A DNA stretch of 64,000 bases from Indolivaga alginatilytica. Its GTDB lineage: Bacteria; Bacteroidota; Bacteroidia; Bacteroidales; Dysgonomonadaceae. Below, in pieces: positions 1,911 to 62,504 of the stretch; positions within the stretch are counted from its first letter, which is position 1, and every line of letters begins with the position of its first letter. The translations under genes and the position numbers were made by a program. Below the pieces are notes generated by a model, which saw nothing but the letters and a program-made list of their open reading frames with translations, did not search any database and had not been told where the DNA came from. The stretch spans positions 62,001-126,000 of the forward strand of contig NZ_QICL01000012.1 of assembly GCF_003201355.1 (NCBI RefSeq), read 5' to 3'.

Positions 1911-1968
1911 TTGTAACAGGCTTTGGTTACAATGTCCACCAAAGCAATAAAATAGGTCTGAGACCTTA
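1911..1968 (+). repeat. intergenic hairpin repeat, copy 1
   Basis: It contains hp2 with covaried arms TTGTAAC/GTTACAA, the linker ACCAAAGCAATAAA and hp3 AGGTCTGAGACCT at 1954-1966. The hp3 end faces the atpA start 17 bp away. The copy lies inside the atp operon. Confidence 0.85.
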
Positions 1969-1984
1969 ATACAAGGAAATAAAT

Positions 1985-3571
1985 ATGTCTGAAAATATAA
2001 AAGCTAGTGAGGTTTCTGATGTGTTGAAGATGCAGTTGGATGGGATTGACAATCGTATTCAATTAGACGAGGTAGGCGTTGTCCTTTCGGTAGGAGACGG
2101 AGTCGCCCGCATCTATGGTCTCAATAACGCAGAAGCCAATGAATTATTAGAGTTCGACAATGGTGTGAAAGCTGTTGTGATGAATCTCGAAGAAGATAAT
2201 GTAGGAGCAGTTTTACTAGGATCGAGTAGCCAGATTAAGGAAGGTTACAACGTCAAGAGAACAGGTCTTATTGCTTCAATTAAAGTCGGTGACGGATTGC
2301 TAGGTCGTGTTATTACACCTCTGGGTGAACCTATCGATGGAAAAGGAGATATAACAGGCGAATTACTGGAAATGCCTCTGGAACGTAAAGCTCCGGGAGT
2401 TATCTACCGTCAGCCTGTAACCCAACCTATGCAAACCGGTCTTAAGGCTATTGATGCCATGATTCCGATTGGTAGAGGACAACGTGAGTTGATTATCGGT
2501 GACCGTCAGACAGGAAAAACAGCAATAGCGATTGATGCCATCATCAGTCAAAAAGCAAATTACGATGCAGGAGATCCTGTATATTGTATCTATGTTGCAA
2601 TCGGTCAGAAAGCTTCTTCTGTTGCCAACATTGTTGAAACATTGAAAGAGAAAGGAGCATTAGAATACACAATTATCATTGCAGCAACAGCTGCCGAACC
2701 CGCTGCGATGCAGTATTTCGGTGCATTCTCGGGTGCTGCCATTGGTGAATACTTTAGAGACACCGGTCGTCACGCCTTAGTGGTTTATGATGATTTATCG
2801 AAACAAGCGGTTGCTTATCGTGAAGTTTCATTACTTTTGAAAAGACCTCCGGGTCGTGAAGCATATCCCGGTGATATTTTCTATCTGCACTCTCGTCTAT
2901 TGGAACGTGCTGCTAAGATTATCGATCAGCAAGAGGTTGCCGAACAAATGAACGATTTACCTGAATCTCTAAAAGGAAGAGTTAAGGGTGGAGGTTCATT
3001 AACTGCACTTCCTATCATCGAAACTCAGGCGGGTGACGTATCTGCATATATTCCTACTAACGTAATTTCTATTACTGATGGTCAGATATTCCTGGATATT
3101 GACTTGTTCAACTCTGGTTATCGTCCTGCAATTGATGTAGGTATTTCGGTTTCCCGTGTGGGTGGTAGTGCTCAAACTAAGGCTATGAAAAAGGTAGCCG
3201 GAACTTTGAAAATCGACCAAGCTCAATTCCGCGAACTGGAAGCATTTACCAAATTTGGTGGTGACATGGATCCTATTACAGCACATACTATTGACAAAGG
3301 ACAAAAGAATGCTGCATTGCTGGTTCAACCTCAATATTCTCCGGTACCTGTTGAAAAACAAATTGCAATATTATATTGTGGAACTAATGGTCTATTGAAT
3401 AATGTGCCTGTAGATAAGGTTCATGAATTCGAATCGGATTTTCTGCAAATACTAGAGATGCAATATAAAGATACTGTATTGGATGTTCTCAAAAAAGGAA
3501 TTATAAATGACAGTGTAACAGCTATCATCGAAAAGGTCGCCGAAGAAATTTCGGGCAAATACAAAAAATAA
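1985..3571 (+). CDS. atpA: ATP synthase F1 subunit alpha
   Basis: Non-catalytic nucleotide-binding subunit of F1. It is 528 residues long. The Walker A motif GDRQTGKT is at about residues 172-179, and the family signature ending [11 protein letters not shown], with the arginine that reaches into the catalytic site, is near residue 380. The N-terminal beta-barrel and C-terminal helical domain are complete. The gene is bracketed by two inverted hairpin-repeat copies, and its TAA stop (3569-3571) is the first three bases of copy 2. The start ATG at 1985 sits just after copy 1. Confidence 0.97.
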
Positions 3572-3626
3572 GGTTTCATACCTTTTTATTACTTTGGTGC
3601 AGGGATAGGGCTTGCCTTATCCCTGC
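3569..3626 (-). repeat. intergenic hairpin repeat, copy 2
   Basis: It begins with the atpA stop codon. hp3 is degenerate (AGGTTTCATACCT) and followed by TTTTATTACTTTGGTGC. hp2 has completely different but still complementary arms, GCAGGGATA/TATCCCTGC. In this orientation hp3 plus the T-run looks like a weak intrinsic terminator between atpA and atpG. Confidence 0.8.
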
Positions 3627-3660
3627 GAATAAGAATACATTATTAAATACGATCATAGTT

Positions 3661-4569
3661 ATGGCATCATTGAAGGAAGTAAAAGATAGGATAGATTCGG
3701 TAAAAAGCACGAAGAAAATAACTTCGGCCATGAAGATGATTGCAACTGCAAAGCTGCGAAAGTCTCAGCAGGCAATAAACTCTTTTCTTCCCTACTCTAC
3801 CAAACTGAATGAGATTCTGACTAATCTTTTAGCTTCTGACAGCAGTATCGATTCTGTTTATGCACAAGAAAGAGAAATTAGAAAAGTAGCCATTGTAGCT
3901 TTCTCTTCCAACTCCAGTTTGTGTGGAGGTTTCAATGCGAATGTTGTTAAAGAATTTTCTTCGGTCGTCTCTCAATGTGCTAAGATTGTAGGGAAAGAAA
4001 ATATCGTTGTCTATCCTTTCGGAAAGAAAATTGCCGATTTTGCACGAAAGTCAAATTTTGCGATTGAACGGAACCCCGAATTTCAACAGATAACCGATAG
4101 ACCTGCTTTTCCTCCGATATTGCAAATTTCAAAAGAGCTTGTAGATAAATTCTTGTCAAAAGAAATAGATCAGATAATTTTAGTGTATACTCACTTCAAA
4201 TCGATGGGCGTTCAACAAATTAAAAGTAATGTGTATCTGCCTTTTGATTTGAAAGGAGCTATAGAGAAAGCAAGCAACGATTCAGCAACATCAAATATCA
4301 ATCAGACTACTGATTATATTTTGGAACCAGAAAAGGCAGAGCTTCTATCGCATCTTATACCAAAGGTTTTAGCATCAAATCTTTTTGCAGCTTTATTAGA
4401 CTCTAATGCTTCGGAAAATGCAGCACGTAGTCTTGCTATGCAGATTGCGACAGATAATGCTGAAGAATTAGTCGGTGATTTGACAATTGAGTATAATAAG
4501 AATCGTCAGGCAGCTATTACCAATCAGTTATTAGATATAATTGGTGGAGCATCTGCTTTGAGTAAATAA
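3661..4569 (+). CDS. atpG: ATP synthase F1 subunit gamma
   Basis: Central rotor shaft of F1. It has 302 residues. The conserved N-terminal coiled-coil segment is present (IDSVKSTKKITSAMKMIATAKL, residues 11-32), as is the C-terminal signature with NRQAAITNQLLDIIGGA. It is last in this operon. The catalytic beta and epsilon genes (atpD, atpC) are not in the window and are presumably upstream. A strong bidirectional hairpin follows the stop. Confidence 0.97.
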   Translation: MASLKEVKDRIDSVKSTKKITSAMKMIATAKLRKSQQAINSFLPYSTKLNEILTNLLASDSSIDSVYAQEREIRKVAIVAFSSNSSLCGGFNANVVKEFSSVVSQCAKIVGKENIVVYPFGKKIADFARKSNFAIERNPEFQQITDRPAFPPILQISKELVDKFLSKEIDQIILVYTHFKSMGVQQIKSNVYLPFDLKGAIEKASNDSATSNINQTTDYILEPEKAELLSHLIPKVLASNLFAALLDSNASENAARSLAMQIATDNAEELVGDLTIEYNKNRQAAITNQLLDIIGGASALSK

Positions 4570-4573
4570 GACA

Positions 4574-4634
4574 AACTTTCATATAGAAAAGGAGTATTTG
4601 AGATTTTCAAATACTCCTTTTCTATATGAAAGTT
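4574..4634. terminator. 28-bp perfect bidirectional hairpin ending the atp operon
   Basis: The arms at 4574-4601 and 4607-4634 are perfectly complementary over 28 bp with a 5-nt loop. The gap lies between two convergent genes, so the hairpin should stop transcripts from both sides. The U-tracts come from the stem itself (CCTTTT). Confidence 0.85.
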
Positions 4635-4640
4635 CACCAC

Positions 4641-5096: not shown

Positions 5097-5139
5097 AATA
5101 TTTGATTGGGTATTTTATTATATTGTATATATTTTTAGT

Positions 5140-5147
5140 CAAATATA
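5140..5147 (-). promoter_or_regulatory. possible -7 box for the 4641-5096 lipoprotein
   Basis: On the minus strand this reads TATATTTG, matching the Bacteroidetes TAnnTTTG box, 44 bp before the start codon. No good -33 TTTG was found at the expected spacing. Confidence 0.4.
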
Positions 5148-5216
5148 ATGATTATCTTCGAATCATATAAAAATATAATTATCTAATTTAAATACTTAAC
5201 ACCCCGATTTATCAAG

Positions 5217-10251: not shown

Positions 10252-10397
10252 CTATAACTGCAAGGTCAAAAGACCTCTACTTTATTATTTTACCGTATCA
10301 TTTTACCGTATCAAAATAAAAAACACAGATGAAGCCTTTAAACCTCAACTGTGCCTTTTTAAGATGTATGTTAAATCACTAACTCAATTAAGCAATT

Positions 10398-10482
10398 GAA
10401 AGTAGTTAATAATATATTCCTAAGCTATAACAGGCTATACTGTTACATACTTGCCAAAGTTGCGAAAAGGTCTGAGACCTTA
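10398..10482 (+). repeat. intergenic hairpin repeat, copy 3
   Basis: A nearly full copy. hp2 TAACAG/CTGTTA is intact, the linker is TTGCCAAAG, and hp3 AAGGTCTGAGACCTT is at 10467-10481. Bases 10480-10482 are the glyA stop codon on the minus strand, so hp3 plus the downstream T-run is in terminator orientation for glyA. Confidence 0.85.
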
Positions 10483-11776: not shown

Positions 11777-11800
11777 AAAGGTCGCTGACCTGTTTATTAT
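11777..11800 (-). repeat. intergenic hairpin repeat, copy 4 (partial)
   Basis: hp3 form AAAGGTCGCTGACCT followed by GTTTATTAT. hp3 faces the glyA start 17 bp away. It is directly followed by copy 5 in the same orientation. Confidence 0.7.
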
Positions 11801-11810
11801 TTTTCTGATT

Positions 11811-11840
11811 AAAGGTCGTTGACCTCTTTATTGCTTGTAT
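11811..11840 (-). repeat. intergenic hairpin repeat, copy 5 (partial)
   Basis: hp3 form AAAGGTCGTTGACCT followed by CTTTATTGCTTG. It lies in tandem with copy 4 upstream of glyA. A weak hp2 remnant may extend to about 11860. Confidence 0.7.
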
Positions 11841-12020
11841 TGTTAAGAATAAAGTTATTCGGCAATACTAAAAATACGCTTACAAATTTACTACATTATT
11901 TTTCATTTCCCTGACTATATGAGTAATATTTTCACCCTCAGCAACCATTCTGAAAACTCATTGCTATATAATTAAAATGGGGCTTTTGTTCGCAACTGAT
12001 TTTTCTTTCGGGAAAAACAG

Positions 12021-18656: not shown

Positions 18657-18800
18657 ACAGAGGGTAAATAACCTGCTGAAAAACATACTATTTTACCTCA
18701 GCTAAGATAGTCTCATCAAAAGAACATTTATTAATTTTGAGAAAATGCTGATGAGCATTTGTTTCCTAAACCTTATTGAGTTTGAATATTTAAAATAGTT

Positions 18801-18881
18801 GAGAGTATTTAATCATATTCTCAAAATATAATAGGCTGTAGTTTTTATACTGACTGAAGTAATAAAAGATCTGTGACCTTA
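18801..18881 (+). repeat. intergenic hairpin repeat, copy 6 (full)
   Basis: hp1 GAGAGTATTTAATCATATTCTC, a weak hp2 (TATAATA..TTATA) and hp3 AGATCTGTGACCTTA. It lies head-to-tail with copy 7, only 3 bp apart. Confidence 0.75.
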
Positions 18882-18884
18882 TAC

Positions 18885-18976
18885 AAGTAAAAGAAAATAT
18901 TTAATGCAACATTTCAGAGCCGTAACTAACTATCGTTGTTACACCAGCCAAAGCAATAAATAGTTCTGCGAACTTA
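18885..18976 (+). repeat. intergenic hairpin repeat, copy 7 (full)
   Basis: hp2 GTAAC/GTTAC, linker AGCCAAAGCAATAAA, and hp3 AGTTCTGCGAACT. The hp3 arms AGTTC/GAACT differ from the usual AGGTC/GACCT at paired positions, a compensatory change. hp3 faces the start at 18999. Confidence 0.85.
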
Positions 18977-18998: not shown

Positions 18999-21158
18999 AT
19001 GAGAACTTACCAAACTAACGAAATCAAAAACATTGCAATTCTTGGGAGCTCCGGCTCCGGGAAAACCACTCTTGCCGAAGCAATGCTTTTCGAGGCAGGA
19101 GTTATAAAACGTAGAGGCACTGTGAAAAGCGGAAATACAGTCACCGATTATTTTCCCGTTGAAAAAGAGTATGGATATTCGGTCTTTTCGAGTATCTTTT
19201 CTGTTGAATGGATGAACCGTAAACTCAACTTTATCGACTGTCCGGGAGCGGATGATTTTATAGGCAATGTAGTTACATCGCTCAATGTTATGGATACTGC
19301 ACTCATGGTATTAAATGCTCAATATGGGATAGAAGTTGGCACAGTCAATCAATTAAGGTATATTCAGAAATTTCAAAAACCGGTGATGTTCATCGTCAAC
19401 CATCTCGATCAGGAGAAAGCCGATTTCGACAGCGTAGTATCTCAGCTAAAAGCCAATTATGGCGAAAAAGCTGTACTTATACAATATCCGATCAATTGCG
19501 GACCCGATTTTAATGCCATAGTAGATGTCCTCAAAAAGAAAATGTACAGGTGGAAACCCGAAGGAGGCGTTCCCGAAGTACTTGAAGTTCCCGAAGAAGA
19601 AAAAGACAAAGCCGAAGAACTGCACCAAAAATTAGTTGAAGCAGCAGCAGAACACGAAGAAACGTTGATGGAAAAATTCTTCGAACAAGGTACACTCACC
19701 GAAGAAGAAATGCGCTTCGGAATCCGTAAAGGGCTCGTTCAGAGAGATATTTTCCCCATATTCTGTGTTTGTGCCGAACGAGATATGTGCGTAAGGCGTA
19801 CCATGGAATTCCTCGGCAACGTAGTTCCCTATGTGGTCGATATGCCCTTCCCTGAAAATACAGAAGGCGAAGAAATTAAACCCGACGCCAATGGTCCTAC
19901 AAGCTTATTCTTTTTCAAATCGACAGTAGAGCCTCATGTAGGTGATATTTCTTACTTTAAAGTGATGAGCGGAAAAGTGAAAGAAGGCGACGACCTTATA
20001 AATGCAGATAGAGGATCAAAAGAGCGTATCGGACAATTATTCATGGTTGCAGGTCAGCAACGCACCAAAGTAGAGGAACTTGTTGCAGGAGATATAGGAG
20101 CCACCGTAAAACTGAAAGATGTGCGCACAGGTAACACACTGAACGGAAAAGGAGCTGATAATCAGTTCGACTTCATTAAATACCCCAACCCCAAATACCG
20201 CAGGGCAATAAAAGCCGCCAACGAAAGAGACTCCGAAAAACTGAGCGAAGCTCTACAACGGATGCACGAAGAAGACCCTACATGGCTCATCGAGAACTCG
20301 AAAGAGTTAAAACAACTCATAGTGTCGGGACAAGGTGAATTCCATTTAAAGACTCTAAAATGGAGAATAGAAAACAACGATAAAATAGCAATCGTATATT
20401 CAGAACCTAAAATTCCATACCGTGAGACTATAACAAAACCATCCAGAGCCGAATACCGCCACCGAAAACAATCGGGAGGTGCAGGGCAATTTGGTGAAGT
20501 ACATATGATTGTTGAACCTTACACGGAAGGTATGCCTGTACCCGACACCTACAAATTTAACGGGCAGGAATTTAAAGTACAATCGAGAGACATTCAAACC
20601 TATGATCTCGATTGGGGAGGAAAGCTCGTCTTTGTCAACAGTATTGTAGGAGGAGCCATCGACAATCGATTTGTTCCGGCGATTATTAAAGGAATAATGG
20701 CACGCCTCGAACAAGGCCCTTTAACAGGCTCATATGCCCGAGATGTACGTGTCATAGTTTACGATGGTAAGATGCACCCTGTAGATTCCAATGAAATATC
20801 ATTCATGCTTGCCGGGCGTAATGCGTTTAACGAAGCTTTCAGAAATGCAGGACCTAAAATTTTGGAACCCATATCGGACGTTACAGTTTTTGTTCCTTCC
20901 GACAAAATGGGAGATGTAATGAGCGACATTCAAAACAGAAGGGGTATAATTCAGGGGATGGAAAGCGACAAAGACATTGAAGTCATAAATGCTAAAGTAC
21001 CTTTGAAAGAAATGTCCAACTACTCTATAACTCTTAGTTCTCTTACCGGAGGACGGGCTTCATTCATCATGAAATTCTCAAAGTATGAATTAGTTCCCGC
21101 CGATGTACAAGAAAAGCTCTTGAAAGAGTATGAAGAAACTCAAAAAGCCGAAGACTAA
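18999..21158 (+). CDS. fusA2: elongation factor G paralogue (EF-G2 type) with GTPase-site losses
   Basis: A ribosomal translocase paralogue of 719 residues with all EF-G domains. G1 is GSSGSGKTT (16-24) instead of AHIDAGKTT. G3 is DCPGA (80-84), so the catalytic His of DTPGH is Ala84. The switch I ERGITI is replaced by EKEYGYSV. G4 is NHLD (134-137). Bacteroides EF-G2, which supports translation without GTP hydrolysis and is needed for gut colonisation, shows the same kind of losses. This gene is therefore probably that paralogue and not the housekeeping EF-G. It is bracketed by repeat copies: two in tandem upstream and one full copy at its stop. Confidence 0.9.
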   Translation: MRTYQTNEIKNIAILGSSGSGKTTLAEAMLFEAGVIKRRGTVKSGNTVTDYFPVEKEYGYSVFSSIFSVEWMNRKLNFIDCPGADDFIGNVVTSLNVMDTALMVLNAQYGIEVGTVNQLRYIQKFQKPVMFIVNHLDQEKADFDSVVSQLKANYGEKAVLIQYPINCGPDFNAIVDVLKKKMYRWKPEGGVPEVLEVPEEEKDKAEELHQKLVEAAAEHEETLMEKFFEQGTLTEEEMRFGIRKGLVQRDIFPIFCVCAERDMCVRRTMEFLGNVVPYVVDMPFPENTEGEEIKPDANGPTSLFFFKSTVEPHVGDISYFKVMSGKVKEGDDLINADRGSKERIGQLFMVAGQQRTKVEELVAGDIGATVKLKDVRTGNTLNGKGADNQFDFIKYPNPKYRRAIKAANERDSEKLSEALQRMHEEDPTWLIENSKELKQLIVSGQGEFHLKTLKWRIENNDKIAIVYSEPKIPYRETITKPSRAEYRHRKQSGGAGQFGEVHMIVEPYTEGMPVPDTYKFNGQEFKVQSRDIQTYDLDWGGKLVFVNSIVGGAIDNRFVPAIIKGIMARLEQGPLTGSYARDVRVIVYDGKMHPVDSNEISFMLAGRNAFNEAFRNAGPKILEPISDVTVFVPSDKMGDVMSDIQNRRGIIQGMESDKDIEVINAKVPLKEMSNYSITLSSLTGGRASFIMKFSKYELVPADVQEKLLKEYEETQKAED

Positions 21159-21239
21159 AAGTCGTTGACCTTTTTATTGCTTTGATTAGTAACATGGATA
21201 GTTATAGCTAAGAAATATAGATATACATATTTCTTCTTA
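21156..21239 (-). repeat. intergenic hairpin repeat, copy 8 (full)
   Basis: It starts at the TAA stop of the EF-G2 gene: hp3 AAAGTCGTTGACCTTTTT, linker TATTGCTTTG, hp2 remnant TAAC/GTTA, and hp1 AAGAAATATAG..ATATTTCTT. hp3 plus the T-run is in terminator orientation. Confidence 0.8.
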
Positions 21240-21260
21240 CTGCACAAAGCATTACAAAAG

Positions 21261-24631: not shown

Positions 24632-24660
24632 TAAGGTCTCAGACCTTTTATTATTACTTT
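24632..24660 (-). repeat. intergenic hairpin repeat, copy 9 (partial)
   Basis: TAAGGTCTCAGACCTTTTATT plus ATTACTTT. hp3 faces the peptidase start 26 bp away. hp1 and hp2 are missing. Confidence 0.8.
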
Positions 24661-24689
24661 AAAATTAATAACATTCGTCATTCGACAAT

Positions 24690-25211: not shown

Positions 25212-25303
25212 AAGTAAATGAAAGTATTTAATGATATACTTCCGAATTGTAACAGACTATTGCTATCGTACTTACCAAGGTAACAGATAGGTTTGGGACC
25301 TTA
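25212..25303 (+). repeat. intergenic hairpin repeat, copy 10 (full)
   Basis: hp1 AAAGTATTTAATGATATACTT, hp2 GTAACAG..CTATCGTAC (weak), linker TTACCAAGGTAACAGA, and hp3 degenerate AGGTTTGGGACCT. hp3 faces the era stop 10 bp away. Confidence 0.85.
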
Positions 25304-26221: not shown

Positions 26222-26252
26222 TTTAAAGTCTAAGACATGTTTATTATTTCTC
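26222..26252 (-). repeat. intergenic hairpin repeat, copy 11 (degenerate)
   Basis: TTAAAGTCTAAGACATG followed by TTTATTATTTC. hp3 faces the era start 28 bp away. A GCTCT/AGAGC stem at 26281-26303 may be a replaced hp2. Confidence 0.5.
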
Positions 26253-26359
26253 TATCGGGAATATATACTGACAAGAACAGGCTCTATTCTTTCAAAACAG
26301 AGCAATTAAATATTCCCCAATACTTAAACACCTCATTAGACAACAAATATAGAATAAAA

Positions 26360-27422: not shown

Positions 27423-27513
27423 AAGTAACAGATTGTATTTAATGATATATTCGGCAAAGTAACAGTCTATTATTGTTATACTTGCCAAAGTATAAAAAAG
27501 GCCTGAGACCTTA
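27423..27513 (+). repeat. intergenic hairpin repeat, copy 12 (full)
   Basis: hp1 GTATTTAATGATATATTC, hp2 GTAACAG..TTGTTATAC, linker TTGCCAAAG, and hp3 AGGCCTGAGACCT. hp3 faces the rpmF stop 52 bp away. Confidence 0.85.
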
Positions 27514-28476: not shown

Positions 28477-28569
28477 AAGTAATTCTAAATATTTAACACA
28501 ATGATTTATCAACATAACTATCTCAGGTTGTTATGCCCAGCCAAAGCAATAAAAAGGTCTGCGACCTTA
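28477..28569 (+). repeat. intergenic hairpin repeat, copy 13 (full)
   Basis: hp1 is weak. hp2 is CATAAC/GTTATG, the linker AGCCAAAGCAATAAA, and hp3 AAGGTCTGCGACCTT. It points toward the 28736 gene. Confidence 0.85.
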
Positions 28570-28699: not shown

Positions 28700-28723
28700 A
28701 CAATAAATAGGTCTATGACCTGA
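28700..28723 (+). repeat. intergenic hairpin repeat, copy 14 (partial)
   Basis: ACAATAAATAGGTCTATGACCT, 13 bp before the ATG at 28736. It is a second copy upstream of the same gene. Confidence 0.75.
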
Positions 28724-34504: not shown

Positions 34505-34782
34505 TAGTTTAGTATTTAAATAATATTAAATAATTATTTGTATTTTCGTTGCAGGAGCAGATCTGAGATACTTTACCCTCTATCGATAAAAAGAGTGCAA
34601 AATAAAAACAAATGTCCCACCATCTGATTATAAGTACAGCAAATGTAAGATTTGTCTTCAATATTTAAGAGAAAATTCCAATTAAGTAGCACTAAATATT
34701 TAATGCGATTTCTCTGCTTACCAATTGTCAGCAAACAATCACACCAATCCTCTATACTTGTTACCTTATCCACTTATTTATT

Positions 34783-34825
34783 CGTTGTTATACTTACCAA
34801 AGCAATAAAAAGGTCTGAGACCTTA
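34783..34825 (+). repeat. intergenic hairpin repeat, copy 17
   Basis: GTTGTTATACTTACC, then AAAGCAATAAAAAGGTCTGA and GACCTTA. hp3 faces the lepA promoter directly downstream. Confidence 0.85.
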
Positions 34826-34844
34826 AAATCTTACAAAACATATC

Positions 34845-38497: not shown

Positions 38498-39004
38498 ATG
38501 AACAATTTCAAAGAAATATCGGCAAAACAACTGCCATTCTCCCCTTATGACATAAAGGACGAATGGATGTTGGTTACAGCTGAGAAAGAGGGCAAAGTAA
38601 ATACGATGACTGCCAGTTGGGGAGGCTTCGGAATTATGTGGAACAAACAAGTAGCCTTTATTGTTATACGTCCACAGCGTTACACAAAAGAATTTGTAGA
38701 TAATGCAGATTCTTTTTCGCTCACTTTCTTTGATAAAAGCTATTTGAAAAAGCTCGGTTATTTGGGCAAAGTATCGGGCAGAGATGAAAATAAAATAGAA
38801 AAAGCTGAACTGACAATTACTCACGAAGGAGAGATTCCTTACTTTGAGGAAGCTCACACAGCCATTTTTATAAAAAAACTATATGCTCAACCAATGGGAG
38901 GTGAATATTTTCTGGATAAGGAAATAATCTCAAAGTGGTTCCCTCAAAACGATTTCCATATTTTATATATAGGAGAGATAACAAAGGTTCTAACTACCAA
39001 GTAA
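38498..39004 (+). CDS. flavin reductase-like FMN-binding split-barrel protein
   Basis: It has 168 residues. The pattern MTASWGGFGIMWNKQVAFIVIRPQRYT (about 37-63) is the flavin-binding core, followed by SFSLTFFD and a GKVSGRDENK loop. It probably binds FMN and reduces it or acts as an uncharacterised oxidoreductase. It follows the BACON gene by 7 bp. Its TAA stop is the first three bases of repeat copy 18. Confidence 0.85.
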   Translation: MNNFKEISAKQLPFSPYDIKDEWMLVTAEKEGKVNTMTASWGGFGIMWNKQVAFIVIRPQRYTKEFVDNADSFSLTFFDKSYLKKLGYLGKVSGRDENKIEKAELTITHEGEIPYFEEAHTAIFIKKLYAQPMGGEYFLDKEIISKWFPQNDFHILYIGEITKVLTTK

Positions 39005-39037
39005 GGTCGCAGACCTTTTTATTATCTACCTAAGTAT
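39002..39037 (-). repeat. intergenic hairpin repeat, copy 18 (partial)
   Basis: It starts at the TAA stop: TAAGGTCGCAGACCTTTTTA, then TTATCTACC. hp3 plus the T-run is in terminator orientation. Confidence 0.8.
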
Positions 39038-39142
39038 AAATATCATTGCAAGTTATAATTTTAAAATATTGATTTTAAAATCCAACTTTTACTTAAGGTC
39101 ACTCTATTTACAAACAATTTTAAAACAGGCGTATTTGCAATA

Positions 39143-41209: not shown

Positions 41210-41288
41210 TAAGGTTTCAGACCTTTTTAATATTTTGACAAGTACAACAACTATAACCTGAAAGCATATTGCTTATAGCTTTCTTTAC
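41210..41288 (-). repeat. intergenic hairpin repeat, copy 19 (full)
   Basis: hp3 AAGGTTTCAGACCTTTTTAA, a weak hp2, and hp1 GAAAGC..GCTTTC, a paired change from the usual AAAGT/ACTTT. hp3 points back toward speA, 174 bp away. Confidence 0.7.
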
Positions 41289-43311: not shown

Positions 43312-43390
43312 AAGTAAAGAATACAATAAAAGCTACAGCATAAATAATGTATTCATACTTACCAAAGCTATAAATAGGTCAAAGACCTTA
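43312..43390 (+). repeat. intergenic hairpin repeat, copy 20
   Basis: ACTTACCAAAGCTATAAATA followed by GGTCAAAGACCTTA at 43377-43390. hp1 and hp2 are weak. hp3 faces the EcsC start 11 bp away. Confidence 0.75.
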
Positions 43391-44126: not shown

Positions 44127-44218
44127 AAGTAAATGAAAGTATTTAATGATATACTTTCTGATTATAACAGGCTATTTCTGTTATGCTTACCAAAGCAATA
44201 AAAAGGTCTAAGACCTTA
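44127..44218 (+). repeat. intergenic hairpin repeat, copy 21 (best full copy)
   Basis: hp1 AAAGTAT..ATACTTT (44134-44158), hp2 ATAACAG..CTGTTAT (44164-44184), linker GCTTACCAAAGCAATAAA, and hp3 AAGGTCTAAGACCTT (44203-44217). All three stems are perfect. It is the reference copy for the family. hp3 faces mlaE 52 bp away. Confidence 0.95.
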
Positions 44219-46822: not shown

Positions 46823-47584
46823 ATGGCGAATTTATTAAGCATAAAAAACTTGCATGCCAACATTGATGGCAAAGAAATATTAAGAGGACTAGATCTTGAA
46901 GTTAATAACGGAGAGATACATGCAATTATGGGTCCTAACGGAGCCGGTAAAAGCACATTAGCATCGGTACTTGTAGGTAATCCCAATTTCGAGGTAACAG
47001 AAGGTGAAGTTACTTTCGAAGGCAAAGATTTATTGGAACTTGCTCCCGAAGAAAGAGCATGCGAAGGTTTATTCCTTAGTTTCCAATATCCTGTAGAAAT
47101 ACCGGGAGTAAGTATGGTAAACTTTATGCGTGCTGCTGTGAATGAGACTCGCAAGCACAAAGGACTCGATCCTATCGCAGCATCGGATTTTTTAAAACTG
47201 ATGAAAGAAAAACGCGAGTTAGTTGATCTCGACAGCACTCTGGCAAGCCGTTCGGTTAACGAAGGTTTCTCTGGTGGTGAAAAAAAACGCAACGAGATTT
47301 TTCAAATGGCTATGCTTGATCCTAAATTAGCTATTCTGGACGAAACAGATTCAGGCTTGGATATTGATGCTCTTCGTATTGTTGCAGCAGGCGTTAACAA
47401 GTTGAGACGTAAAGACAATGCTACGATTGTTATTACTCACTACCAACGTCTTTTAGAGTATATCAAACCAGACTTTGTACATGTATTATACAAAGGACAA
47501 ATCGTAAAAAGTGCAGGACCTGAATTGGCTCTTGAATTGGAAGAAAAAGGATACGATTGGATTATTAAAGATTTTCAAGATTAA
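46823..47584 (+). CDS. sufC: Fe-S cluster assembly ATPase SufC
   Basis: An ABC-type ATPase of the SufBCD scaffold complex. It has 253 residues. Walker A is GPNGAGKST (about 36-44), the SufC insert is LSFQYPVEIPGVSMVNFMR, the signature is GFSGGEKKRNEI, and Walker B is LAILDETDSGLD. The usual sufB gene is not immediately upstream. The TAA stop is the first three bases of repeat copy 22. Confidence 0.97.
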   Translation: MANLLSIKNLHANIDGKEILRGLDLEVNNGEIHAIMGPNGAGKSTLASVLVGNPNFEVTEGEVTFEGKDLLELAPEERACEGLFLSFQYPVEIPGVSMVNFMRAAVNETRKHKGLDPIAASDFLKLMKEKRELVDLDSTLASRSVNEGFSGGEKKRNEIFQMAMLDPKLAILDETDSGLDIDALRIVAAGVNKLRRKDNATIVITHYQRLLEYIKPDFVHVLYKGQIVKSAGPELALELEEKGYDWIIKDFQD

Positions 47585-47637
47585 GGTCATAAACCTATCT
47601 GTTGCTTTGGTGCAGGAATAAGGTTTATCTCCTGCGA
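47582..47637 (-). repeat. intergenic hairpin repeat, copy 22
   Basis: It starts at the sufC stop: TAAGGTCATAAACCTATCTG, TTGCTTTGG, then hp2 with GC-rich arms GCAGGAATA/TATCTCCTGC, like copy 2. It sits between sufC and sufD in terminator orientation. Confidence 0.75.
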
Positions 47638-47685
47638 TACTAAAAGTACAGAAACAATGTTTTACAGTAAAATATACAGAATTCA

Positions 47686-49026
47686 ATGATAGAAACTCAA
47701 TATATAGACTTATTCACCGAACACAGAAGCCTTATCGACAGCAAATCGACAAAGGTTCTGAACGATGAAAGGAATAAGGCTTTTGAAATTTTCAAGACGC
47801 TCGGTTTTCCCGATCGTAGCCTTGAAGATTATCAATATTCGGATGTTGTAAAGGAATTTATTCCCGATTATGGATTTAATCTAAGTAGATTATCTGCTCA
47901 AACAAATCCATACAACGCGTATAAATGCAATGTACCCGAACTTTCGACTAATTTATTCTTTTTAATGAATGATACATTCCACAAAGAGCATCAGCCAAAA
48001 ACTGATTTCCCAAAGGGTGTATTTATCGGAAGCCTAAACGATTTTGCAGAACAACATGCTGATATAGCATCAAAATATTATGGCAAAGCAGCTCAATTAG
48101 AAAACAATACTATAGCTGCTTTCAATACTATGTTTGTACAAGATGGATTTGTAATATACATTCCTGATAACATCGTAATTGAACAGCCTCTGCAATTAAT
48201 AAATATACTAACTGCAAATGTCGATTTTCTGGTAAACAGACGTCTACTTATTATTGCAGGAAAGAACTCTCAGGTAAAACTATTGGCTTGCGACCACACT
48301 GTTGACAGCCATAAATTTCTGGCGACTCAGGTTACAGAAATATTTGCCGGAGAAAATGCGCACATCGAGTTTTACGAACTGGAGGAAAACTCTAACCAAG
48401 TAACCCGATTGGCTTCAACCTACGTTCATCAAGATAAATCATCAACCGTCTTAGTTAATAATATTACACTGAACTGTGGTTTTACACGTAATAATTACCA
48501 TGTGAAACTTAACGGGGAAAACGCCGAAGCAACTATTGCAGGTGTTATTATTGCCGATAAAGTACAGCACGTTGATAACTTTGCATTTCTGGATCATGCA
48601 AAACCTCATTGTCAAAGTACTCAGCTATTTAAATATGTATTACAGGAGCATGCCGTAGGTTCTTTCTGCGGACGTATTCTTGTAGAGCAGGATGCACAAA
48701 AAACAATGGCGTATCAGACAAATAACAATCTTTGTGCTTCGCCTGATGCCCGTATGTATTCAAAACCTCAGCTTGAAATTTATGCTGATGACGTGAAATG
48801 TTCTCACGGTTTAACTACCGGACAACTGGACGAGGATGCTCTTTTCTACTTGCGTGCAAGAGGTATAGCCAAAGAGGATGCAAAATTGCTGCTTATGCAA
48901 GCATTTACCGCGGATGTGCTTAAGCTTATTCATATTGACGTACTAAGAGACCGTCTTGAAGAATTGGTAGAGAAACGCTTCCGTGGAGAAGAAGCCAGAT
49001 GTGGTGATTGCGCTATATGTAAATAA
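47686..49026 (+). CDS. sufD: Fe-S cluster assembly protein SufD
   Basis: Scaffold subunit pairing with SufB and SufC. It has 446 residues. The C-terminal beta-helix has KPQLEIYADDVKCSHGLTTGQLDEDALFYLRARGI, with the conserved His/Cys region, and an unusual Cys-rich tail RCGDCAICK. The N-terminal part is the typical SufD helical domain. The TAA stop is the first three bases of copy 23. Confidence 0.95.
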   Translation: MIETQYIDLFTEHRSLIDSKSTKVLNDERNKAFEIFKTLGFPDRSLEDYQYSDVVKEFIPDYGFNLSRLSAQTNPYNAYKCNVPELSTNLFFLMNDTFHKEHQPKTDFPKGVFIGSLNDFAEQHADIASKYYGKAAQLENNTIAAFNTMFVQDGFVIYIPDNIVIEQPLQLINILTANVDFLVNRRLLIIAGKNSQVKLLACDHTVDSHKFLATQVTEIFAGENAHIEFYELEENSNQVTRLASTYVHQDKSSTVLVNNITLNCGFTRNNYHVKLNGENAEATIAGVIIADKVQHVDNFAFLDHAKPHCQSTQLFKYVLQEHAVGSFCGRILVEQDAQKTMAYQTNNNLCASPDARMYSKPQLEIYADDVKCSHGLTTGQLDEDALFYLRARGIAKEDAKLLLMQAFTADVLKLIHIDVLRDRLEELVEKRFRGEEARCGDCAICK

Positions 49027-49114
49027 GGCCTCAGACCTTTTTATTGCTTTGGCAAGTATTATAACCGGAGACAGTTATAATCAGAAATAGAACAATATAG
49101 ATTTAATTACTTAC
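49024..49114 (-). repeat. intergenic hairpin repeat, copy 23 (full)
   Basis: It starts at the sufD stop: hp3 AAGGCCTCAGACCTTTTTAT, linker TGCTTTGGCAAG, hp2 ATTATAAC/GTTATAAT (8 bp perfect), then an hp1 remnant. Terminator orientation between sufD and sufS. Confidence 0.85.
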
Positions 49115-49119
49115 AAAAA

Positions 49120-49140
49120 ACAAATAGGTCTATGACCTTA
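49120..49140 (+). repeat. intergenic hairpin repeat, copy 24 (partial) containing sufS start
   Basis: AAATAGGTCTATGACCTTA. The ATG at 49132-49134 is the loop of hp3. The only available sufS start therefore lies inside the repeat. Confidence 0.8.
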
Positions 49141-50416: not shown

Positions 50417-50460
50417 TTACTAAATTTACACGTCCTTAGATCGCTGTTTTTTTTATTACC

Positions 50461-50518
50461 ATAACAACTATATTTCTATATTACACTTACCAAAGTAACA
50501 AATAGGTCTGAGACCTTA
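50461..50518 (+). repeat. intergenic hairpin repeat, copy 25
   Basis: hp2 remnant ATAACAAC, linker CACTTACCAAAGTAACAAAT, hp3 AGGTCTGAGACCT at 50504-50516. hp3 faces the start at 50530, 11 bp away. Confidence 0.85.
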
Positions 50519-51587: not shown

Positions 51588-51681
51588 TAAGGTCTCAGAC
51601 CTATTTGTTACTTTGGTAAATATAAAAACAGGAGATAGTTATAGTTGTAAAATGTAACAATAAATATTTACTACCACTTAT
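51588..51681 (-). repeat. intergenic hairpin repeat, copy 26
   Basis: TAAGGTCTCAGACCTATTTG, TTACTTTGGTAAATAT, with weak hp2 and an hp1-like GTAACAATAAATATTTAC. It lies 39 bp after the stop of the 50530 gene, hp3 facing it. Confidence 0.8.
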
Positions 51682-53818: not shown

Positions 53819-54691
53819 ATGAAAAAAGTAATTTTAGGATGTCTGTGCCTTGGCATGTTAGCATCATGTAATGTAAAGAACTCTGACGAATATAAAGCAT
53901 TGCAAGCTGAGAGAGATTCTTTATTACAAGTCTCGTCTAAGGGGCAATCAGATGTATCCGATTTAATGGCTATGATCAATCAAGTGGAAGAAAACTTCGC
54001 TCAAATTAAAGAAGCCGAGAAATATCTAACGATAGAATCTAAGTCAAAGGGTGAAATGTCTTCTGATACCAAATCCCGTATCACCGACAATTTCCAAATG
54101 ATTAATGAAATTCTAAAGAAAAATAAGGCAGACATAGAAACCCTTAATAAGAAACTTAAGAATGCTGGAGGACAGTCGGCACAACTTAAGCAAACAGTAG
54201 AAAGACTTACTGCCGAACTTGAACAAAGAAGTGCTGCTATCACAGAACTTAGAGAAGCTCTTACTGTAAGAGATGCTCAAATTGCATCATTAACAGGTGA
54301 AGTTGAAAAATTGAATACCAATGTTGAAGATCTTTCTAACAAAAATGTAGAGCAATCTAACAAAATAAAAGAACAAGAGAAGGCTTTGAATACCGGTTAT
54401 TATATCTTCGGTACATCTAAAGAGCTTAAAGAAGCCAAAGTAGTTACAGGCGGCTTTATCTCTTCTCCTAAAATTTTGAAAGAGTCTATCGACAAATCAA
54501 CTTTCATCAAGATTGACATTCGCGATGTAAAAGAAATTCCTGTATATGCTAAGAAAGCAAAAGTATTATCTGATCAACCTAAAGACAGCTACACTATTGC
54601 TAAAGATGCAAACAGTCAGGTAGTAATTAAGATTAACGATTACAAAAGATTCTGGAGCCTAGGTCAATTCCTTATTATACAGGTTGATTAA
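53819..54691 (+). CDS. coiled-coil lipoprotein
   Basis: It has 290 residues. The lipoprotein signal ends GMLASC (Cys at about 17). Residues about 85-190 form a strong coiled coil (KLKNAGGQSAQLKQTVERLTAEL and ITELREALTVRDAQIASLTGEV). The C-terminal domain (about 195-290) is predicted alpha/beta and unrecognised. It is possibly a structural or adaptor envelope protein. Its TAA stop is directly followed by hp3 of copy 27. Confidence 0.75.
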   Translation: MKKVILGCLCLGMLASCNVKNSDEYKALQAERDSLLQVSSKGQSDVSDLMAMINQVEENFAQIKEAEKYLTIESKSKGEMSSDTKSRITDNFQMINEILKKNKADIETLNKKLKNAGGQSAQLKQTVERLTAELEQRSAAITELREALTVRDAQIASLTGEVEKLNTNVEDLSNKNVEQSNKIKEQEKALNTGYYIFGTSKELKEAKVVTGGFISSPKILKESIDKSTFIKIDIRDVKEIPVYAKKAKVLSDQPKDSYTIAKDANSQVVIKINDYKRFWSLGQFLIIQVD

Positions 54692-54788
54692 AGGTCTCAG
54701 ACCTTTTTATGGCTGTGGCAGGAATAACAACGCCAATTAGTTATAACTTAAATTATAGCAATAAATATTATTGATAATTTAATTCTTA
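54689..54788 (-). repeat. intergenic hairpin repeat, copy 27 (full)
   Basis: TAAAGGTCTCAGACCTTTTT, linker ATGGCTGTGGCAG, hp2 ATAAC/GTTAT, hp1 ATTATAGCAATAAATA and TTATTGATAAT. It starts at the stop codon of the 53819 gene. Confidence 0.8.
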
Positions 54789-56490: not shown

Positions 56491-56583
56491 AGGTCTCAGA
56501 CCTATTTATTACTTAGACAAGCGTAAATACAACCGATCGAGTTACGATTAAATATGCTTGTTCTCAACAATTAGTGTTACTTA
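56491..56583 (-). repeat. intergenic hairpin repeat, copy 29 (full)
   Basis: hp3 AGGTCTCAGACCTATTTATT, linker ACTTAGACAAG, hp2 GTAA..TTAC, then an hp1-like ATTAAATATGC. hp3 faces the start of the NadX-like gene. Confidence 0.8.
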
Positions 56584-57362: not shown

Positions 57363-57390
57363 TAAGGCATCATGCCTCTTATTATTTTAG
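57363..57390 (-). repeat. intergenic hairpin repeat, copy 30 (covaried hp3)
   Basis: AAGGCATCATGCCTCTTATT, then ATTTTAG. hp3 is AGGCAT-C-ATGCCT instead of AGGTCT-C-AGACCT: two paired positions changed and the stem kept. hp3 faces the MBL gene start. Confidence 0.65.
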
Positions 57391-57561
57391 TAAACAGATA
57401 TACCAAAGATAGCTATGATTAAAAGATACAGCAATAAATTCATTAAATATTTTACAGTATTTAAGCTCTCATTCCGTTTTATTTCTTTGGGTAAATATAC
57501 CACTCCAACTAATTATAGTAATTAGATACAGCAAGAGATAATTGGCATTCCCCAGAAATAA

Positions 57562-57597: not shown

Positions 57598-57619
57598 AAG
57601 TCTTTATATTTTGACCTGA

Positions 57620-58141: not shown

Positions 58142-58321
58142 AATCTCGTTGTTAAAAGTTATTTTTACAAAGATAATAATTTCTCCTATATCAAATAACA
58201 GATGAATACTAAAAATAGTTTAACCTCAGAAGGTATCTATAGCCTAATTTTAAGTAATTTCAAGTATTTATAGTTCTATTTTACAGTAATATCTAACAGA
58301 AGTACTTCTATAATAATCAAA

Positions 58322-58345
58322 ATAGTAAAAAGACCCGAGACTTTA
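58322..58345 (+). repeat. intergenic hairpin repeat, copy 31 (degenerate)
   Basis: AAAAAGACCCGAGACTTTA. The last bases form the TAA stop of the 58343 gene (minus strand). Confidence 0.6.
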
Positions 58346-58753: not shown

Positions 58754-58779
58754 TAGCCTATTTATATTTTATAGAGGGC

Positions 58780-58810
58780 TAAAAAGCCAATAAGACGGTC
58801 TGAGACCTTA
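58780..58810 (+). repeat. intergenic hairpin repeat, copy 32
   Basis: AAAAAGCCAATAAGACGGTC, TGAGACCTTA. hp3 GGTCTGAGACC at 58797-58807, and the TTA after it is the serS stop codon (minus strand). hp1 and hp2 are absent. Confidence 0.8.
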
Positions 58811-60082
58811 ATTTATTATATCGAATCCAGTATAGGGAACCAAAGCCTTAGGGATATGTATCCCATCCGGTTTCTGATTATTCTCGAGCAAAGCCGCTAC
58901 AATTCGAGGCAAAGCCAATGCACTGCCATTTAAGGTATGCACCAGTTGGGTTTTCTTATATTCTGTAGTACGGTATCTGCATTTAAGGCGGTTGGCCTGA
59001 AAGCTTTCGAAATTAGACACAGAGCTTACCTCCAACCAACGTTTTTGGGCAGCGGAAAATACTTCGAAATCGAATGTCAATGCAGAAGTAAAACTCATAT
59101 CCCCACCACAAAGGCGAAGTATACGCCACGGTAATCCCAATTCCTCAACCAACGATTCAACATGATTTACCATTTCTTTCAATGATTCATATGAATGTTC
59201 GGGAGTATCTATACGTACAATCTCTACTTTATCGAACTGGTGTAAACGGTTCAATCCGCGAACATCCTTTCCATAAGAACCTGCTTCTCGCCTGAAACAT
59301 GCCGAATAGGCTGTATTTTTGACCGGAAGGTCTTTTTCTTCCAGAATAACATCGCGATATATATTTGTAACCGGAACTTCCGCTGTCGGTATAAGATACA
59401 AATCGTCCAAAGTCGCATGATACATCTGACCTTCTTTATCGGGAAGATTACCAGTTCCGTAACCCGAAGCTGCATTCACAACGTATGGTGGCTGAACTTC
59501 GATATATCCGGCATCACGTGCTTTATCTAAAAAGAAGTTTATAAGCGCTCTTTGCAGACGGGCACCTTTTCCTTTATATACAGGAAAACCTGCACCTGCA
59601 ATCTTTACTCCCAATTCAAAATCTATCAGATCGTATTTTTTTGCCAAGTCCCAGTGAGGAAGAGCTTCATCTCCCAAATCAGGAATAGCACCTCCTGTTT
59701 TAATCTCAACATTATCTTCTGCAACCCGACCCTCCGGAACTTCATCCGCAGGTAGATTAGGTATAAGTACAAGCATTTCCTGCACCTGCATCTCAGCATC
59801 TTTAAGATCTGCTTCCAATACTTGAATACGACCTTTAACCTCTTGTACAAAAGAACGTTGGTTTTCGGCTTCGTCTTTCTTTCCCTCTTTCATCAAAGCA
59901 CCAATGCTTTTCGATTTGGCATTTACATCCGCAAGAAGTCCGTCTAACTCAGTTTGTATATCTCTACGTCTTTTATCTTCGCCCAACACTTTGTAGATGA
60001 TTTCTTTTCCATCAAAATGCTTTTTAGCTAACTTTTTTATAACAGCCTCAGGGTTATCATTAATTGTCTTGATCGTTAACAT
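58808..60082 (-). CDS. serS: seryl-tRNA synthetase
   Basis: It charges tRNA-Ser. It has 424 residues. The N-terminal coiled-coil arm (about 30-100) binds the tRNA. Class II motif 2 is NTAYSACFRREAGSYGKD, with QFDKVEIV after it, and motif 3 is TLNGSALALPRIVAALLENNQ with the catalytic Arg. The TAA stop is part of repeat copy 32. Confidence 0.97.
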   Translation of the reverse strand: MLTIKTINDNPEAVIKKLAKKHFDGKEIIYKVLGEDKRRRDIQTELDGLLADVNAKSKSIGALMKEGKKDEAENQRSFVQEVKGRIQVLEADLKDAEMQVQEMLVLIPNLPADEVPEGRVAEDNVEIKTGGAIPDLGDEALPHWDLAKKYDLIDFELGVKIAGAGFPVYKGKGARLQRALINFFLDKARDAGYIEVQPPYVVNAASGYGTGNLPDKEGQMYHATLDDLYLIPTAEVPVTNIYRDVILEEKDLPVKNTAYSACFRREAGSYGKDVRGLNRLHQFDKVEIVRIDTPEHSYESLKEMVNHVESLVEELGLPWRILRLCGGDMSFTSALTFDFEVFSAAQKRWLEVSSVSNFESFQANRLKCRYRTTEYKKTQLVHTLNGSALALPRIVAALLENNQKPDGIHIPKALVPYTGFDIIN

Positions 60083-60184
60083 CTTATTCTTTACTATTTA
60101 GATATTGGAAATATTTATCAAAACCGGTAATACTACAAGAGATTTTTAGAACCTTAACTCGCGTGTTATTATCAATTTGACGAA

Positions 60185-60192
60185 CAAAGGTA
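60185..60192 (-). promoter_or_regulatory. possible -7 box for serS
   Basis: On the minus strand TACCTTTG, 103 bp before the serS start. No clear -33 element. Confidence 0.35.
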
Positions 60193-60351
60193 TAAATATT
60201 TTAAGTCACTTCTAAGAGGTTAGTATATATAAATAAGAAAAAAGTAAATTCAGTGAATATTCCGAAAAATTCATAAACTCGCATAAGTAATATAGAGGGC
60301 TATGGAGATTTTTAGTACTTTTACCTCTCCAAAATATAATTTTTACTTAGA

Positions 60352-61389: not shown

Positions 61390-61458
61390 TAATTCAGTTA
61401 CAAGTAAATGCAATTGCTTGTTCACTAATTTTCTTGTAACTTGTAACTAATAAAAAAA

Positions 61459-62010
61459 ATGACAGAAGCGGAAGAAGCTCTATTAGTTAAAAGACTATTG
61501 GATGAGAAGACCCAAAGGGATGCTTTCTCTGTTTTGGTTAAGTCGTTCAGTGAGCGGCTTTATTGGCAGATCAGGAAAATTGTTATTTCCCATGAAGATG
61601 CCAACGATGTCCTGCAAAACGCATTTATCAAGGTATGGACTAATATCGACAGTTTCAGAGGTGACTCTAAATTGACGACCTGGCTATATAAAATAGCCAT
61701 CAACGAGAGTATCTCTTTTATAAATAAGCAACGACAACAACAAAACGTACCGTTGGATGACAGTGACAACTTTCTGGAAGCAAAACTCGAAAGCGATTCT
61801 TATTTTGACGGTGACGAAGCACAGTTGAAGCTGCAAAAAGCAATACTCACTTTACCTGAAAAACAAAGGATAGTCTTCAATTTGAAGTATTTTGAAGAAA
61901 TGAAATACGAGGAGATGTCTGAAGTTCTCGACACCTCTGTAGGAGCCCTCAAAGCATCTTATCATCATGCTGTGAAAAAAATTGAAGATTTTTTATCACT
62001 ATCCAATTAA
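61459..62010 (+). CDS. RNA polymerase ECF sigma factor
   Basis: An alternative sigma factor of 183 residues. Region 2 (about 20-88) contains SHEDANDVLQNAFIKVWTNIDSFRGDSKLTTWLYKIA. Region 4 is near EKQRIVFNLKYFEEMKYEEMSEVLDTSVGALKASYHHAVKKI (about 134-175), with its HTH. It is the first gene of a three-gene unit with a small membrane protein and an exported helical protein, an arrangement typical of Bacteroidetes stress operons. Confidence 0.92.
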   Translation: MTEAEEALLVKRLLDEKTQRDAFSVLVKSFSERLYWQIRKIVISHEDANDVLQNAFIKVWTNIDSFRGDSKLTTWLYKIAINESISFINKQRQQQNVPLDDSDNFLEAKLESDSYFDGDEAQLKLQKAILTLPEKQRIVFNLKYFEEMKYEEMSEVLDTSVGALKASYHHAVKKIEDFLSLSN

Positions 62011-62058
62011 ACCTTTTTCATTTTAAAGAGTCTATAATATACTCAAAAGATTAGTAGT

Positions 62059-62409
62059 ATGTTGAACAATATCGAAAAAAACAATCCGTTCAGAGTTCCG
62101 GAAAATTACTTTCAGAATTTCAATGAAGAAATCATGAATAAACTGCCGGAAAAGAAGGAGCAAAAGAAAATTGTTCCTCTATGGAAGTCTGTTGGTAAGT
62201 GGGTGGCTGCCGCAGCTGTGGTTACAGGCATTGCTGTACTGGGAACTAATTATATGGAGAACCATTCTCCTGATATTAATAACTTCTCAAAAGAAAGCTA
62301 TGCCCCTGCTGATGAAAATTTGGTTTCTCTGGAAAACGATTATTATCAGTTTCTGGAAGACGAAGCAACACAATTGGTCTACAAAGACGCAGTTTACAGT
62401 GTAGAATAA
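62059..62409 (+). CDS. small membrane protein, probable anti-sigma factor
   Basis: It has 116 residues. An N-terminal motif NPFRVPENYFQNFNEEIMNKLPEKKE (about 9-34), common in proteins co-encoded with Bacteroidetes ECF sigma factors, is followed by one membrane helix (about 47-65: WVAAAAVVTGIAVLGTNYM) and an acidic outer part. The position next to the sigma gene suggests it holds the sigma factor inactive (inference). It lacks a zinc-binding HxxxCxxC anti-sigma motif. Confidence 0.7.
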   Translation: MLNNIEKNNPFRVPENYFQNFNEEIMNKLPEKKEQKKIVPLWKSVGKWVAAAAVVTGIAVLGTNYMENHSPDINNFSKESYAPADENLVSLENDYYQFLEDEATQLVYKDAVYSVE

Positions 62410-62410
62410 T

Positions 62411-62504
62411 TAAAGGTCGCAGACCTTTTTATTACTTTGGTAAGCATAACAGCAATAGTCTGTTATAATTCGAAAGGATATCATTAAATGCTTCTGTTTA
62501 CTTA
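62411..62504 (-). repeat. intergenic hairpin repeat, copy 33 (full)
   Basis: hp3 AAAGGTCGCAGACCTTTTTA, linker TTACTTTGGTAAG, hp2 ATAACAG..CTGTTAT, hp1 GAAAGGATATCATTAAATGC. All three stems are recognisable. It starts 2 bp after the stop of the 62059 gene, inside the sigma operon. Confidence 0.9.

Follow-up and report, generated by a model that had tools for sequence, protein, structure and literature searches.

A TA-bordered miniature transposable element of Dysgonomonas whose hairpin end often coincides with stop codons

The stretch analysed here, a 64,000-nucleotide segment of contig NZ_QICL01000012.1 (positions 62,001 to 126,000, referred to as the window), belongs to a Dysgonomonas, a gut bacterium, and carries among its genes sufC and sufD, in whose spacers and those of many other genes one repeat of 92–93 bp recurs. 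Relatives of its SufD protein belong to Dysgonomonas and to further Bacteroidales; among the named ones, that of the sister species Dysgonomonas sp. HGC4 (L012) is closest, at 98% identity. The repeat is real and genome-wide, and it is a new miniature transposable element (MITE), a non-autonomous DNA transposon, one terminus of which coincides with the stop codon of many genes. The original prediction, made from the letters of the window, had reported three full copies (44127–44218, 25212–25303 and 62411–62504), all of which lie there, and some 33 copies spaced about every 2 kb, which is about right for the window, although the genome at large is less dense.

Copies were located with a profile built from those of the window and iterated on stretches of the genome, at a threshold of ≥15 bits unless E ≤ 0.05 is stated. 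By these two cut-offs the window holds 25 and 30 copies respectively; the window copies cited below come from the E ≤ 0.05 listing and carry the bit scores of the profile. The best full copy lies at 44127–44218 (plus strand, 71.0 bits), and other full copies occur on the same strand at 10390–10482 (48.7 bits), at 25212–25303 (58.4 bits), where HGC4 has a copy at the same place, and at 18885–18976 (58.6 bits), the last with the stem variant AGTTC/GAACT. Further entries are the right two thirds at 1906–1968 (plus, 37.4 bits), a partial copy at 50458–50518 (plus, 33.6 bits), two copies at 57363–57442 and 57462–57549 (both minus, 25.4 and 28.5 bits), a right end alone at 24632–24662 (minus, 15.5 bits), and weak matches comprising further lone right ends at 11778–11802 (minus, 10.0 bits) and 49118–49140 (plus, 10.2 bits), a right half at 11812–11853 (minus, 12.6 bits) and a very diverged copy at 26224–26325 (minus, 11.6 bits).

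Alignment of 60 full copies from 456.5 kb gave a consensus reading TAAGTAA...CCAAAGYAATAAAAAGGTCTGAGACCTTA, with sharp ends and random flanks, and near-identical 92-bp consensus sequences were obtained from the Dysgonomonas genomes G002 and G006. Both ends start with AG after TA, and both carry TAAG and a TTTAWTGCT block at equal distance from the terminus. Compared in register, the left and right ends match at 16 of 27 positions (shuffle P = 0.00045; P = 0.11, 0.012, 0.0012 and 0.036 over 10, 20, 30 and 46 bp), and the mean over 92 copies is 13.1 matches in register, none of ten other registers exceeding 10.5; terminal inverted repeats are thus present, though weak. Three successive dyads had been predicted, in part correctly. 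In the 92 full copies the AGGTC hairpin of the right end (dyad 3, AAGGTC/GACCTT) is the most regular, with standard pairs in 499 of 552 cells, followed by 359 of 452 in dyad 2 and 477 of 630 in dyad 1. Dyad 1 forms in two of three consensus-like sequences folded as DNA and is absent in one. Double changes cluster at one pair per dyad (9, 7 and 16 sequences for dyads 3, 2 and 1). Read outward from a gene, the right end gives UAA-GGUC-UCA-GACC-UUUUUAUU, i.e. stop codon, hairpin and U-tract in the form UAAGGUCUCAGACCUUUUUAUU; it has the G+C-rich stem and following T run of an intrinsic terminator, the hairpin being trailed by TTTTTATT when read outward from stop codons. No Rfam family matched the window at its gathering score.

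The genome sample searched with the profile amounted to 871.5 kb, composed of 400 kb of stretches at regular coordinates, 392.5 kb near known hits, the window and a 15-kb small contig, so that everything beyond the regular stretches is biased towards copies. It contained 177 matches, and the reversed sequence none. Extrapolation from the 62 matches in the 400 kb that had not been chosen for copies gives 794 ± 101, or about 800, copies in the genome; the element is hence not rare elsewhere, rarity being the outcome that would have counted against the predicted family, and the window is some 2.5 times as dense as the regular stretches (25 copies against about 10 expected). The 13-mer CCAAAGCAATAAA occurs exactly 144 times in the 5.12-Mb genome and its reversal once, and the 16-base linker, with ≤3 mismatches, is found at 18 places in the window against 2.6 expected. 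The claim that copies always lie between genes was very nearly correct, one of the 177 hits falling wholly within a called gene. A non-coding, multi-copy and dispersed unit of 92 bp is what is expected of a MITE, elements of this kind measuring about 50–500 bp. By ends, 92 of the hits have both, 63 only the right, 9 only the left and 13 neither, which agrees with the predicted remnants reduced to the last dyad and linker except that the linker CCAAAG has frequently gone from right-only copies, AATAAA and the hairpin being what they retain.

Beyond this genome, a covariance model, built automatically, retaining 5 base pairs and used for counts only with up to 150 candidates scored, gave at least 148 matches in HGC4 (148 of the 150 scored). 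The hairpin pattern with ≤2 mismatches occurs 534 times in the host genome and 421, 75, 206, 0 and 251 times in five other genomes of the genus; outside it, the pattern reaches up to 82 occurrences in a second genus and 19 in a single genome from a third, with none or few elsewhere. In all, 28 of 101 genomes of the family contain the pattern, and its reversal reaches at most one per genome. There were no exact matches to the core pattern in viral contigs and no blastn match to the element in plasmids.

A collinear contig of HGC4 supplied four of the empty sites for which the original prediction had suggested looking in relatives, and five were found in total, one TA being present where the site is empty and TA on both sides where it is filled. 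The cleanest lies at the full copy 51588–51679 (minus, 63.1 bits), where HGC4 reads AATC-TA-TAACACTT; the site of the full copy 28477–28569 (plus, 61.7 bits) is likewise empty with one TA, as are those of the full copy 27423–27513 (plus, 54.7 bits) and of the full but diverged copy 58252–58345 (plus, 27.4 bits), the left flank being further changed at the former and diverged at the latter. The fifth is that of a 103-bp variant with a REP-like interior (repetitive extragenic palindrome; L041 13664–13766), empty in L081. We left the full copy 62413–62503 (minus, 69.9 bits) out of this count because, although HGC4 lacks it, the two sites also differ outside the element. The pattern is that of a target-site duplication, and of the TA duplication of IS630/Tc1/mariner-type MITEs in particular, although an element that itself ends in TA and makes no duplication would look identical. 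Insertion at TA, sharp ends, in-register likeness of the ends, hundreds of copies and insertions later than the split from the sister species together characterize the element, and the MITE-like nature suggested for it at the outset is upheld by its single-TA empty sites, weak in-register terminal repeats and copy number.

The same borders can be read as insertion 3' of TA by a TA-ending element, as would be done by a Y1 tyrosine (HUH) transposase spreading a repeat of the REP/BIME type (bacterial interspersed mosaic element), to which the element had also been likened. Hairpins lie near both ends, and the one gene matching PF01797 (Y1) in the genome, at L047 1450–1986, is a REP-associated tyrosine transposase (RAYT; NF047646 above cut-off), the kind of gene that had been suggested as a check. 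However, the 3.2-kb RAYT locus contains no copy of the element, the visible palindromes on both sides of the gene being GGATTTGCAATCC-like and unlike it; the unit is a 92-bp TA-bordered insertion, whereas a REP is a palindrome of 20–40 bp, and neither of its ends carries a GTAG or CGTC tag; and the likeness of the ends in register is what a DDE-type element should show. Because of the single-TA empty sites and the in-register match we assign the element to the MITEs, and regard a REP/BIME origin as improbable. Still less credible is a DNA uptake sequence kept by competence and doubling as a terminator as in Neisseria, a likeness that had been raised on account of hairpins at stops. High copy number, intergenic position, hairpins after stop codons and right ends found alone would all suit it, but whole 92-bp units with TA borders come and go, and counts in related genera are low or nil; since copies arrive as whole insertions, we attach almost no weight to it.

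The source of mobility was sought in the genome less its eight smallest contigs (L060–L067, 1.2–3.0 kb, read as N). PF13358 (DDE_3), PF13340 (DUF4096) and PF00665 (rve) had no match there, and PF01609 (DDE_Tnp_1) matched one fragment at a contig edge with a flank unlike the element; neither the DDE_3 transposase expected with an IS630/Tc1/mariner-type MITE nor the IS5-type transposase (DUF4096, DDE_Tnp_1) expected with an IS5/IS427-type one is therefore at hand. DDE_3 is absent from all six genus genomes including this one and present in 8 of 61 family genomes; none of the genes matched by the five domains carries the element. The original prediction that no transposase able to move the element lies in the window agrees with the lack of any match to the five domains on its contig (C12), other transposase families not having been searched. 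No long element with these ends was seen in the 871.5 kb, a weak 866-bp pair in L032 being left out of account; two long end pairs considered as an autonomous element, in L095 (1279 bp) and L084 (1041 bp), turned out to be ordinary copies in a degraded state that flank unrelated genes. The eight smallest contigs, at 1.2–3.0 kb, have the size of collapsed repeats and so may conceal an insertion sequence. By eye, an ISL3-like transposase reading frame was noticed in L079. The host genome (G000) is very poor in the transposase domains searched, although its MITE has been active.

The remark in the original prediction that the element forms terminator-like hairpins at stops proved its most informative, and the link is tighter than was supposed, the end of the element often being the stop codon itself. 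Since both ends start AG after TA, a TAA stop is rebuilt when the element inserts into its TA. In the window the terminal TAA of a copy is the stop codon of ORF (open reading frame) 1985–3571 (copy 3569–3652, minus, 22.7 bits), of ORF 38498–39004 (39002–39079, minus, 33.9 bits), of sufC (47582–47649, minus, 18.2 bits), of sufD (full copy 49024–49112, minus, 54.8 bits) and of the minus-strand ORF 58808–60082 (weak, right end only, 58788–58810, plus, 10.2 bits); right ends also fall at the stops of ORFs 18999–21158 (21156–21241, minus, 31.8 bits) and 53819–54691 (54691–54770, minus, 51.8 bits), one base out of register. At the sufD stop the window reads TGTAAATAAGGCC, the element beginning at the stop. 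The same stop is TAA with no copy in 10 of 12 relatives examined (L002–L007, L010, L011, L021 and L023), D. capnocytophagoides has a copy at the identical stop, oriented as in the window (L001 9339–9430), and sufD of HGC4 ends in TAAGCCCTC with no recognizable copy. The sufC stop is TAA at the same codon in L004, L006 and L023, TAA one codon earlier in L005, L007, L010 and L021, and TGA in L011.

Gene ends for the whole sample were taken from a simple purpose-made gene finder (653 genes in the 871.5 kb). Thirty-six of the 72 right ends that face a stop codon lie exactly at it (19 of 44 full copies and 17 of 28 right-only ones), as do 4 of the 39 left ends that face one (3 of 35 full copies, 1 of 4 left-only); for full copies the two ends differ at Fisher P = 0.0008. 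An earlier count with a model of the right end alone, over 456.5 kb, had placed 21 of 46 exactly at the stop. Full copies lie at stops 21 times against 11.5 expected from random TA sites in their own spacers (P = 5e-5), left ends showing no enrichment over such sites. The same lean was observed in two other Dysgonomonas genomes, in one of them significantly (G002, stretches near known hits: right 11 of 25, left 1 of 17, P = 0.013).

Two readings compete over this asymmetry. Taken jointly, a TA-inserting MITE that rebuilds TAA, followed by preferential survival of the copies whose hairpin end closes a gene, is the explanation we hold to be probable. Alternatively, the machinery might insert preferentially, and in one orientation, at the TA of stop codons or close to the ends of genes, the hairpin being useless to the host; we think this unlikely. 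With bit score as an age clock, which is an assumption, right ends sit at stops more commonly among copies below 60 bits (14 of 46, with 4.1 expected and 2 left ends) than among those at or above 60 bits (5 of 46; P = 0.038), which speaks against insertion bias; right-only hits also outnumber left-only ones seven to one, and a smaller share of right-end sites has changed between species. The last point comes from the 8 copies common to the window and HGC4, in which the right 27 bp have changed at 17 of 212 aligned sites and the remainder at 76 of 505 (P = 0.010). Several of the shared copies illustrate it: the right half at 41210–41260 (minus, 30.4 bits) is identical in HGC4, at 43348–43390 (plus, 23.7 bits) the right end is kept and the left part has diverged, and in the full copy 56491–56582 (minus, 38.4 bits) the right end is unchanged and the left diverged. 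In the right-only hairpin at 58788 the window has GGTCT/AGACC and HGC4 GATCT/AGATC, a paired change, and at 28701 one pair has been lost in HGC4.

A number of observations weigh against selective survival. Near-consensus copies, taken as young, already lean towards the stop (among those of ≥60 bits, 5 right ends against 1.7 expected, P = 0.016, and 1 left), which is what an insertion preference would give. In G006, sampled at evenly spaced stretches, the lean is not significant (right 7 of 18, left 2 of 11, P = 0.41). With a simple gene finder, genes called slightly too short could produce some of the coincidences with stops. Start codons are faced by 83 right ends and stops by 72; 40 of the 83 lie within 35 bp, and termination, which makes little sense in that direction, does not account for the 83; they may only reflect short spacers, because left ends lie equally near to starts (26 of 62 within 35 bp; among full copies, right 21 of 48 and left 24 of 57), a symmetry that also suits insertion bias. 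The slower change of the right end was measured in just 8 copies, and since this end is the most information-rich part, a decayed copy is likelier to be recognized by it. A ribosome terminating at the stop may sit over a hairpin that touches it. As regards the MITE itself, the five domain searches yielded no mobilizing transposase, the terminal repeats fall short of what is usual in a MITE (not significant at the shortest of the five lengths), and the flanks have changed beyond the insertion at two of the five empty sites (27423 and 58252).

From their position at stops, their survival alone and their slower change we infer that right ends have been kept as stop-plus-terminator hairpins. Between 38000 and 57900 of the window, 31 terminator-like sites were counted where 12.8 would be expected, and right ends of the element make up 7 of the 31. 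It could be objected that right-only hairpins are no remnants, and that the transposon acquired one of its ends by capturing a stop-plus-terminator hairpin from a pre-existing family. Unrelated sequence lies upstream of many hairpins, and the hairpin pattern with its 534 occurrences exceeds the linker-plus-hairpin core with 359, both of which would fit such a capture; the graded series from full to right-only copies and the same 92-bp consensus in three species speak against it, and we consider it a rather unlikely account. Whatever its origin, the hairpin at a stop might act in termination, in mRNA protection or on the ribosome. A structure directly after stop codons is reported to promote re-initiation (PMC7518266), and a terminator to lose its function when placed only some bases away from the gene (PMC4824070). 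In Escherichia coli, REPs that lie no more than 15 nt from the stop, likewise repeated hairpins after stops, are reported to stall ribosomes (PMC12306157); those REPs are short RAYT-tied palindromes, unlike the TA-bordered 92-bp insertions described here.

The sequence of events that we envisage would begin with a transposase acting in trans and scattering copies at TA dinucleotides; entry into the TA of a TAA stop would rebuild TAA. Copies with the AGGTC-hairpin end against the stop would then be preferentially kept, because that end reads stop codon, hairpin and U-tract, a ready-made mRNA 3' end, and the remainder of the element would decay while hairpin and U-tract stay. In its most extended form, which we put forward tentatively and would not expect to hold in full, the terminus became a stop-codon-plus-terminator cassette, so that a mobile element moved by an unusual transposase in a genome poor in insertion sequences supplied the stops and transcript ends of many genes in one genus. 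If true, a border sequence that makes insertion into stop codons harmless by leaving the protein unchanged, together with one useful end, would have let a genome packed with genes accommodate about 800 copies cheaply, and transposon ends would be a source of new terminators and mRNA 3' ends. Selection on 3' ends would be directly testable, because empty sites in sister species date such ends. The puzzle is what moves the element in genomes that lack, or all but lack, five common transposase domains.

The component features have precedents, given the stops of BOX, the terminators of SPRITE and the 3'-end MITEs of Coxiella. The pneumococcal RUP resembles the element in length (about 107 bp), high copy number and terminal inverted repeats, and is thought to be moved in trans by IS630-Spn1 (PMC3049150), but the terminal repeats here are much weaker and DDE_3 is missing from the genus genomes. 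SPRITE, also pneumococcal, has a terminator-like fold, is enriched near gene 3' ends and has been suggested to be a co-opted terminator (PMC3049150), whereas in the present case a TA-inserting element provides the terminator as one of its ends, and the stop codon lies within that end. BOX, a modular repeat (boxA/B/C), encodes the stop codon of 36 genes in one pneumococcal strain (PMC3049150); here, in contrast, it is the insertion border itself that creates the stop, TA + AG giving TAA. In Coxiella, MITEs have been described that overlap the 3' ends of genes (PMC5896051). The Correia element of Neisseria is an intergenic MITE with more than 120 copies that acts via promoters and via IHF and RNase III sites (PMC10969869); it differs in size (about 204 bp), sequence and taxon, and in the excerpt available stop codons go unmentioned and terminators figure mainly as a possibility. 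The MITEs of Porphyromonas gingivalis and BrickBuilt, likened by description only, are also intergenic MITEs of Bacteroidales (PMC10969869, PMC5771137). Neither this repeat family nor the exact TA + AG rebuilding of stops nor one-ended retention was found in the open-licence literature, which is weak evidence of absence.

Some copies depart from the standard form. Variants with standard ends and another interior measure 119–195 bp, and several contain GTAGGGGCAGACC...GGTTCACCCCTAC, which resembles a pair of GTAG-tagged REPs (a designation supported by PMC3733652). A palindrome pair of the GTAGGGGC...GCCCCTAC kind lies inside the (near-)standard ends of variants at L036 16245–16363, L037 2903–3030, L032 5401–5523, L041 13664–13766 and L038 12808–13002, and likewise looks like a GTAG-tagged REP lodged within the element. 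Those at L040 6746–6888 and L039 18616–18750 have interiors with CTCACC...CCCTC-type sequence, apparently another repeat family. The window has a 144-bp variant with standard ends and another interior at 34683–34826 (plus strand; its part 34782–34825 scores 40.7 bits). Among inverted pairs made up of two right ends, none showed a convincing symmetrical form. Copies also abut: at 18796–18976 of the window a diverged copy (18796–18881, plus, 35.6 bits) adjoins the full copy 18885–18976 end to end, two copies do likewise at L045 7549–7714, and at the site of window copy 44127 HGC4 has two abutting copies in opposite orientation, as if newcomers enter the TA at the edge of older copies.

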